From: Collinsella aerofaciens
GTDB lineage: Bacteria; Actinomycetota; Coriobacteriia; Coriobacteriales; Coriobacteriaceae
Direction of reading: 5' to 3'
NCBI RefSeq assembly: GCF_005845035.1
Contig: NZ_SPFO01000001.1
Coordinates: 1-64,000 of the forward strand
Length of the DNA: 64,000 nucleotides
Shown here piece after piece: positions 9,185 to 40,500 of this stretch; position 1 is the stretch's first letter; each line of letters starts with the position of its first letter. Below the pieces are notes generated by a model. It saw only the letters and a program-made list of their open reading frames with translations. It had not been told where the DNA came from and did not search any database. The position numbers were made by a program, and so were the translations under genes.

Positions 9185-9198
9185 CGAACAGCTGTTCG
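9185..9198. promoter_or_regulatory. SOS (LexA)-type box
   Basis: CGAACAGCTGTTCG is a perfect 14-bp palindrome fitting the Gram-positive/actinobacterial LexA consensus CGAAC-N4-GTTCG. It is 57 bp from the start codon of the leftward GyrI-like gene, within the expected promoter. Confidence 0.65.
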
Positions 9199-39081: not shown

Positions 39082-39945
39082 ATGCCCATGATCAAGATGT
39101 TTGCGAGTGACTTAGACGGAACGCTGCTGAACGCCCTGCACGAGGCGGATGGGACCATCCGCCGCGCCATTCGCGAGCTGACCGAGGCTGGCCTGCATGT
39201 GGTTCCCGCGACCGGACGCTCGACGCTGCCGATCGGCGAGCATGGCTTTACGGGCCTGGCGCTTGACGCCTGCTGCTCCAATGGATCAATCGTGCGCGAC
39301 AGTCATGGCGAGGTGCTCAAAACCTGGACCATCGATCCGCAGGTTACCGAGGAGCTGCTCAAGGCATTCCCGGGCATTTGCTTTGATTGCTCCACACCCG
39401 ATGGCATGTTCTCGAGTGGGTCGTTCGAGATGCACCAGGCGGGCTTTAAAAAGGACAGCCCCATCAAGCGTATTGTGATGCGCGGCATGCGTGTGCGCGG
39501 CGGGTATCACGAGGAACAGTATTTCGACCAGTCGATCGGCGACATCCTGCGCCACGATGTGTGCAAGATCAACTGCCGCGTGACCTCGCCCGAGCTGGAG
39601 CGCGACCTTAAGGCGTATTTGGCCGAGCGCTCGGACCGCGTGGTCAACGCGCCGTTCGATCCGGTGATGTTCGAAATCACGGACGTGGCGTGCAACAAGG
39701 GCGAGAGCGTGGCCTGGCTGGCGGGCTACTACGGCATTGCCGAGAACGAGGTCGCGGTCTACGGCGACGGCGGCAACGACATCGCCATGCTCAAGCGTTT
39801 CCGCCACAGCTACGCGACCAAAAACGCAAGCGATGCAGCTAAGGCCGCCGCGAGCGCGACCATCGGCAGCTGCATGGTCCACGCCGTCCCCAAACACATG
39901 CTCGCCACCATGCGCAAGCAAAACTCCCGCACTGTCATCGAATAA
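39082..39945 (+). CDS. Cof-type HAD phosphatase
   Basis: 287 aa. D10 and D12 in SDLDGTLLN start the HAD site, with TGRS in motif II, K near 205-210 in DVACNKGESVAWLAGYYG and the acidic motif IV VYGDGGNDIAML. The cap domain lies between residues 85 and 190. Such proteins hydrolyse sugar phosphates, nucleotides or cofactors such as FMN or PLP. AAGGAG precedes the ATG. The gene ends directly at a family C hairpin. Confidence 0.92.
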   Translation: MPMIKMFASDLDGTLLNALHEADGTIRRAIRELTEAGLHVVPATGRSTLPIGEHGFTGLALDACCSNGSIVRDSHGEVLKTWTIDPQVTEELLKAFPGICFDCSTPDGMFSSGSFEMHQAGFKKDSPIKRIVMRGMRVRGGYHEEQYFDQSIGDILRHDVCKINCRVTSPELERDLKAYLAERSDRVVNAPFDPVMFEITDVACNKGESVAWLAGYYGIAENEVAVYGDGGNDIAMLKRFRHSYATKNASDAAKAAASATIGSCMVHAVPKHMLATMRKQNSRTVIE

Positions 39946-39974
39946 TGTGACAAAGGGACAGTCCCTTCGTCACA
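39946..39974. repeat. Palindromic element, family C copy 9
   Basis: TGTGACAAAGGGAC-AG-TCCCTTCGTCACA directly after the HAD stop codon. Stem sequence is different from the main C copies but the AAAGGGACAG core is shared. Confidence 0.72.
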
Positions 39975-39992
39975 GGGGTCTGTGTGCTTGGA

Positions 39993-40012
39993 ATACGAAC
40001 ATATATTCGTAT
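39993..40012. promoter_or_regulatory. AT-rich palindrome upstream of the small peptide gene
   Basis: ATACGAA-CATATA-TTCGTAT followed by ATATAACT, which could serve as a -10 region. It may be an operator for the peptide transcript. Confidence 0.45.
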
Positions 40013-40099
40013 ATATAACTAGGCTCTGGTAGAATCGGTATCGTTGACGGCAGTTCCATGTGCCGGGCAACGCCCTCCATCTGATGGGAGGTGATGCCC

Positions 40100-40225
40100 A
40101 TGACCGATCTGATTGATTTTGTGAGACTTCTGACCGCTTTGGTCTCGTTCTTCACAGCGCTCGTCGGGCTTTCCGAGGCACTCAAGCAACGTTCGAAGCA
40201 ACGTAAAAGGGGTCGCCGCCGCTAA
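40100..40225 (+). CDS. 41-residue hydrophobic/cationic peptide
   Basis: 41 aa from the ATG at 40100, which has GGGAGGTG eight bases upstream; an ATG at 40094 is too close to that site. Residues 4-27 form one hydrophobic helix (LIDFVRLLTALVSFFTALVG), and the tail is KQRSKQRKRGRRR with ten basic residues. The ribosome-binding site is inside a hairpin CCTCCAT-ctg-ATGGGAGG, and a terminator overlaps the 3' end. Size, topology and sequestered start resemble type I toxins or small membrane-active peptides. An antisense RNA is not identified. Function is inference. Confidence 0.6.
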   Translation: MTDLIDFVRLLTALVSFFTALVGLSEALKQRSKQRKRGRRR

Positions 40226-40239
40226 GGCGTTGACCCCTT
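40207..40239. terminator. Terminator overlapping peptide 3' end
   Basis: AAGGGGTC / GACCCCTT arms with GCC/GGC inner pairing, spanning the last codons of the peptide gene. The T-run is short (CTTAATCC). Confidence 0.6.
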
Positions 40240-40376
40240 AATCCAAGCAACGGCGCTGTCCAGCTTTCCAGAACTTGGGCTGCCGTCGACACTATTCTAC
40301 CCACGAATGACATTTTGGACAATCGGTAATGCCGCTCTAAAAGCCTGGCACAACCGGCACAACCTAGGCGGTCGCT

Positions 40377-40411
40377 GGATGTGACAAAGAGGCTGCCCCT
40401 TCGTCACATCC
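40377..40411. repeat. Palindromic element, family C copy 10 (variant)
   Basis: GGATGTGACAAAGaGGc-TG-ccCCTTCGTCACATCC. The stem resembles copy 9 (GTGAC/GTCAC) while the core is altered. It lies in the 275-bp gap before the second TetR gene, which otherwise shows nothing I can assign. Confidence 0.65.
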
Positions 40412-40500
40412 CAAATATTGCCTTTACGTGTTGATGCACACGGTGTGCAATAATACTCGCACTGTGCAATAGCGCACAGGCTGAGTAACAAGGAGGACGC

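Follow-up and report, generated by a model that had tools for sequence, protein, structure and literature searches.

The 64,000-nucleotide stretch of Collinsella aerofaciens DNA analysed here (contig NZ_SPFO01000001.1, positions 1 to 64,000; "the window" below) contains a conserved unit of ~260 bp that is very probably a type I toxin-antitoxin module, made up of a sense promoter, a hairpin at the Shine-Dalgarno sequence (SD), a small peptide frame, a stop-codon hairpin, and an antisense block beyond it. Judged from sequence comparison, our best reading is that it represents an undescribed type I-like family of the class Coriobacteriia, present in Collinsella and in gut bacteria related to it, with a putative toxin and a predicted antisense RNA. 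An initial annotation, made from the letters of the window, had already proposed a type I toxin, and this proposal is supported by a multi-copy chromosomal and plasmid family, selection on the frame, retention of the SD hairpin, and an antisense promoter, RNA block, and terminator, although it had been overlooked that the leader can also pair with the distal 3' region. The parts of the module are as follows.

39996..40009, no strand assigned: LexA/SOS-type box CGAACATATATTCG, part of ATACGAACATATATTCGTAT, in overlap with the sense -35 region; retained by every chromosomal type-A copy
40030..40035, plus strand: sense -10 TAGAAT, with TG before it at 40027-40028; TGRTAGAAT conserved in types A and B
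40043..40099, plus strand: 5' leader, also complementary to the 3' block; transcript start placed from the -10
40086..40093, plus strand: SD GGGAGGTG, conserved among copies
40100..40225, plus strand: open reading frame (ORF) of a 41-residue hydrophobic-cationic peptide, putative type I toxin; start ATG 40100, stop TAA 40225
40200..40289, minus strand: predicted ~90-nt antisense RNA (5' hairpin domain plus terminator), putative antitoxin; block conserved outside the ORF
40207..40239, no strand assigned: stop-codon hairpin, bidirectional or minus-strand terminator; minus-strand tail CCCCTTTTACG, z -4.3, 5 compensatory pairs
40249..40287, plus strand: 3' block, complementary to the leader (fold-back); on the minus strand, 5' hairpin of the antisense RNA
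40294..40322, minus strand: antisense promoter with a 17-bp spacer; -35 TTGTCC 40322-40317, -10 TAGAAT 40299-40294

The peptide and selection on its reading frame

The 41-residue ORF with one membrane helix is present as first described, and the peptide (MTDLIDFVRLLTALVSFFTALVGLSEALKQRSKQRKRGRRR) has a single hydrophobic stretch, with a 17-residue hydropathy maximum of 1.98 starting at residue 8. Ten basic residues had been assigned to its tail; there are indeed 10 K+R overall, but only 9 of them are located in the tail. Searches of Pfam and NCBIfam with the peptide gave no match above the cut-off, a search of solved structures gave none, and the TisB_toxin profile (PF13939) matched only 2/17 family members, with a best E-value of 0.11.

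A frame that is not conserved had been named in advance as evidence against a toxin gene. We found purifying selection, with a pooled ratio of nonsynonymous to synonymous differences (pN/pS) of 0.43 over 190 pairs of intact copies within the genus, and of 0.05/0.27 for L001 against L004. The value is also 0.43 for residues 1-31, which lie outside the overlap with the terminator, and because these ratios are well below 1, the frame is kept as a protein, residues 1-31 included. The same residues make it extremely improbable that the ORF is spurious and merely lies on a structured non-coding RNA locus. The antisense terminator U-tract does run into the toxin frame, and the AAA/AAG codons of the tail coincide with it, so that the Lys/Arg codons double as U-tract and part of the tail is shaped by the overlap, which would fit a spurious frame; this leaves the low pN/pS of residues 1-31 to be accounted for, along with the start, SD, and length that divergent members retain despite quite different codons.

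Leader and Shine-Dalgarno hairpin

The AT-rich palindrome and -10 that had been placed ahead of the ORF are both real (ATACGAACATATATTCGTAT; TAGAAT 40030-40035), and the hairpin said to hold the SD is present and longer than was described, extending over 40065-40099 (GGGCA.CGCC.UCCAU-CUG-AUGGG.GGUG.UGCCC). The folding energy of the 71-nt leader is -26.4 kcal/mol. By energy alone the SD hairpin is unexceptional, as 26/200 shuffles are equally stable; nevertheless it is kept across lineages. When its arms were exchanged among 15 lineages of the order in a swap test, cognate arms paired at -23.3 kcal/mol versus -20.7 kcal/mol for non-cognate arms, a difference reached in 0/20000 permutations. The predicted mRNA structure is thus of the kind that limits translation at the SD, which is one feature of type I systems.

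Predicted antisense RNA unit and stop-codon hairpin

An antisense RNA had been suggested for a 275-bp gene-free stretch downstream of the ORF, and that stretch does contain conserved antisense elements, namely a promoter, an RNA block, and a terminator. TTGTCC-17-TAGAAT on the minus strand is the only sigma-70-like site in 39940-40500 (0.4 expected), and its -10 is conserved in nearly all copies. So is the block that follows, GTCGACGGCAGCCCA...TGGGCAGNGCCGTTG, which is better conserved than the ORF and leads into the stop-codon hairpin. Together the conserved promoter, block, and terminator support the prediction of an antisense RNA gene opposite the toxin gene, which probably keeps the toxin-like gene silent. 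The predicted overlap of the antisense RNA with the toxin gene is confined to the 3' end, a point that was missed in the initial annotation. A covariance model of the antisense RNA scores 100 bits at the window site and 96-99 bits at the plasmid copies; because it was built from the window copy and close relatives, these scores show position and extent and are not independent proof. Rfam and tRNA scans of the window found no RNA family and no tRNA.

The terminator that was thought to overlap the end of the ORF corresponds to a hairpin of -23.9 kcal/mol (z -4.3; 0/200 shuffles as stable), and five of its pairs are changed on both sides, in 14 cells, a cell count reached in 0/500 shuffles. Types A and B have a weak plus-strand U-tract, whereas on the minus strand the tail is U-rich in their intact copies as well as in the divergent member L044. 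As the U-tract is better on the minus strand, the hairpin resembles an antisense terminator no less than a terminator of the gene.

Predicted pairing between the leader and the 3' block

Provided that the sense transcript reaches the 3' block, its 5' and 3' ends are predicted to fold back on each other. In an RNAalifold alignment of 18 modules, the leader is predicted to pair with the 3' block through 27 pairs, with 97.9% of cells paired and 2 pairs compensatory. Because compensatory changes within the genus rest on few events, we made the swap test over the 15 lineages, in which the cognate leader and 3' block paired at -47.8 kcal/mol compared with -37.8 kcal/mol for non-cognate partners (0/20000 permutations). 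The test gave no signal for antisense with SD, for leader with antisense, or for two ORF controls. At the non-Watson-Crick positions, G-U exceeds A-C by 25:10 (p 0.008, although the counts are not independent), which speaks for base pairing in the sense transcript more than for a simple inverted repeat of the DNA. One leader arm is used by both this pairing and the SD hairpin, and the two are therefore mutually exclusive.

The repeat GGYGnTGCCCA occurs at the start site and in the 3' block, and we considered pairing of the antisense RNA with the SD and start through direct repeats, as in pAD1 par. This candidate is not supported, as cognate partners were no better than swapped or shuffled ones. 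A clean switch between open and closed SD on antisense binding was dropped: the predicted unpaired probability of the SD is 0.13 in the full-length RNA and 0.06 with the 3' block blocked, so that it is buried both ways, slightly more in the latter. In genome G049, which is small, there are four intact paralogues (L044, L114, L115, L116), with compensatory leader/3' block changes among them.

LexA-type box

The AT-rich palindrome, whose core is at 39996-40009, is by its sequence a LexA-type box, which had not been recognised as such. The motif CGAACNNNNRTTCG has six sites in the 2.3-Mb genome, including sites ahead of two genes that we take from their sequences to be recA and a Y-family polymerase, and lexA of the same genome has three boxes upstream. 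Every type-A copy keeps the box as CGAAC(ATAT/AAAC)ATTCG at a constant distance to the -10. The identical 14-mer recurs, similarly spaced, in L118, a copy that comes from a different family of the order and has ATA as its start codon. This chromosomal copy is therefore probably SOS-inducible; the plasmid copies are without the box.

There are other LexA-type boxes as well. A perfect one, CGAACAGCTGTTCG, lies at 9185-9198 of the window between a GyrI-like gene and the gene for an ABC transporter ATPase, and may mark a further SOS gene. Another is found ahead of a GyrB/ParE-like gene (G000:C19:18461), and a third between RarA-like and dGTPase-like genes (G000:C8:21462).

Distribution and cassette boundaries

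The family is present three times in this genome: as the window copy, as a second copy on contig C5, and as a decayed copy at C11:206347. Across the genus we counted 45 copies in 21/44 Collinsella genomes, with up to 4 per genome, and the named relatives carrying the family are Collinsella aerofaciens and Collinsella sp. A class-wide search with a profile including the divergent member L044 found members in 11/153 sampled genera, belonging to three families of the order, and a wider sample of the phylum yielded no credible member outside class Coriobacteriia; a match in G666, from another class of the phylum, was not counted because its frame of 183 residues is too long. The order of the parts is unchanged in 20 divergent regions, in which peptide identity outside the genus falls to 20-46%, while L118, L126, and part of L129 are without a canonical start or leader. 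No relative was found in phage records or viral contigs, and we rejected a phage origin on this basis.

Three types can be distinguished. Type A, to which the window copy belongs, carries the LexA-type box. Type B is plasmid-borne and lies near partition and replication genes (parA/parG/dnaB); the plasmids are circular and measure 23, 27, and 30 kb, and the DNA surrounding the C5 copy has patches of similarity to them. Type C has lost the toxin leader, start, and 5' half and retains the antisense promoter and RNA block. The type-C copies (G000:C11:206347-206439, L003, L014, L022, L023, L027, L028, L042, L043) are possible solitary antitoxins. Several genomes carry an IS110-type insertion at one shared position close to where the toxin gene ends, which separates the toxin from the antisense unit (L012, L046, the decayed L026; G014:C1:1299236-1303264), and the L012 toxin so separated has P12 and S18 within its helix. 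In L013, the 5' half of the module is missing ahead of a truncated toxin copy, and a long palindrome, TTATAGCTGGCTATATTATA..TATAATATAGCCAGCTATAA, stands in its place.

The window copy is bounded by two copies of a palindromic repeat (TGTGACAAAGG..CCTTTGTCACA), single copies of which mark empty sites:

39946..39974, no strand assigned: left copy of the ~30-bp palindromic repeat TGTGACAAAGGGACAGTCCCTTCGTCACA; single copy at empty sites elsewhere
40380..40408, no strand assigned: right copy of the ~30-bp palindromic repeat, bounding the cassette on the other side

In eight congeneric genomes examined, the flanking TetR gene is present and the module is missing. The HAD gene is in place as well in six of these, with TetR and HAD joined at one copy of the ~30-bp palindrome, compared with two copies at the occupied site. 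One empty-site genome, G009, matches the TetR stretch at 99% identity and has no family copy anywhere. Since exact empty sites retain a single palindrome copy, the module is gained or lost as a unit.

Precise gain and loss, and copies at differing loci, would also be expected of a non-autonomous mobile element resembling a miniature inverted-repeat transposable element, in which the inverted flanks are terminal inverted repeats and the small ORF is incidental; the 5' ends of both transcripts do share sequence (GACGGCAG...GGGCAGCGCC). We regard this as very unlikely and rejected it, because the boundaries of gain and loss are the outer 30-bp palindromes and not the inverted flanks. The frame is moreover under purifying selection, and the pairing of the flanks is maintained by compensatory change over many genera, with a G-U bias on the sense strand.

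Comparison with known type I systems

In architecture the family is similar to pAD1 par of Enterococcus faecalis (RNA I/RNA II, Fst) and the Fst/Ldr group, in which there are also plasmid and chromosomal copies, convergent promoters, a shared terminator hairpin where the toxin gene ends, an SD in a 5' stem-loop, and a toxin with one membrane helix and a charged C-terminus (PMC7472228). There is no sequence match to Fst/Ldr, and the present peptides have no PXXXG-type signature and, in a 17-member alignment, no W between helix and charged tail, although the missing W is not decisive alone because Fst of pAD1 itself lacks it (PMC7472228). The second antisense contact of pAD1 par at the start site (DRa/DRb) is unsupported here in the swap test, and in its place we found the covarying leader-3' block pairing.

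The hok/sok system of plasmid R1 has plasmid-borne copies, as this family does. The 5' and 3' ends of hok mRNA pair in a fold-back, as is predicted here. Activation of that mRNA requires 3' processing (PMC8309996). Sok targets the mok leader, whereas the antisense RNA here covers the 3' end, and the Hok peptide is unrelated (no Pfam match); no overlapping leader ORF of the mok type was identified here, though no systematic search was made. To our knowledge, a leader-3' block fold-back is not known for BsrG/SR4, TxpA/RatA, and YonT/SR6 of Bacillus subtilis or for MsoT1/MsoA1 of Microcystis. All of these systems share with the one predicted here an antisense RNA that extends over the 3' end of a gene for a small hydrophobic toxin, but their peptides and phyla differ and the cited literature records no LexA box (PMC5848175, PMC12390103).

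SOS control of the module would recall tisB and dinQ (PMC8309996). In tisB/istR-1 of Escherichia coli, similarly, LexA controls a small membrane peptide whose antitoxin is an RNA; IstR-1, however, is classed as acting in trans and its target is a standby site (PMC8309996), while here the antisense RNA would overlap the 3' end. By sequence, the peptide has no signature of pAD1 par, of tisB/dinQ, or of the B. subtilis systems with 3' antisense RNAs. Until a cyanobacterial case was added in 2025, Proteobacteria, Firmicutes, and Tenericutes were the only groups with known type I systems (PMC12390103), and in the open-access literature we found no report of them in Coriobacteriia or Collinsella.

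Proposed mechanism and implications

We propose that the plus-strand gene makes a small membrane toxin, whose mRNA would hide its SD in a hairpin and whose leader is complementary to the block past the stop codon, so that the full-length transcript could close on itself. The minus-strand promoter at 40294-40322 would give the ~90-nt antisense RNA, which would run over the 3' block and end in the stop-codon hairpin. Perfectly complementary to the 3' end of the toxin mRNA, this RNA would bind there, so that the mRNA would no longer be used and would become a substrate of RNase III. The pairing would also take away the 3' block, and the leader arm would then close on the SD. Removal of the antisense duplex by RNase III would have an effect resembling that in BsrG/SR4 and TxpA/RatA (PMC12390103). 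Given the LexA box in the sense promoter, DNA damage should raise the toxin mRNA above the antisense RNA, and the plasmid copies, which have no box, probably act as addiction modules.

Several observations weigh against a type I module. The permutation tests ignore relatedness except through the ORF controls, cognate antisense-SD pairing gave no signal in the swap test or against shuffles, and the SD is predicted to be buried in every form that we folded. The peptide belongs to no Pfam or NCBIfam family (the nearest profile, TisB, at E 0.11, is not significant), and in some copies the antisense half is severed by the IS110-type insertion, with the toxin intact in L046. Toxicity is itself a prediction, and some copies (L040, L045) have Pro or Ser in the helix while the frame is open, as might be expected if the product were a small regulatory or membrane-stress peptide, a non-toxic effector whose translation is limited by the antisense RNA and which causes neither killing nor stasis. 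We think this unlikely, since the plasmid copies adjoin partition genes, the antisense unit is retained where the toxin 5' half has decayed, and type I toxins typically combine a hydrophobic helix with a charged tail, as this peptide does (PMC7472228, PMC8309996).

For a type I module, then, we offer a more complete account tentatively: that this is the first type I family of Actinomycetota, a new one whose antisense RNA shares the 5' sequence of the toxin mRNA and competes with the leader for the 3' block, and the freed leader arm closes the SD hairpin, with chromosomal copies responsive to LexA and plasmid copies serving plasmid maintenance. The family accounts for a set of RefSeq "hypothetical proteins" such as WP_022094649.1 and WP_255413117.1. 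A family of the Coriobacteriia that is common in human gut Collinsella would widen the known range of type I systems, and it would provide parts for plasmid maintenance and the SOS response in a group that is hard to work with. It would also show antisense control, 5'-3' closure of an mRNA, and LexA control within one 300-bp module.
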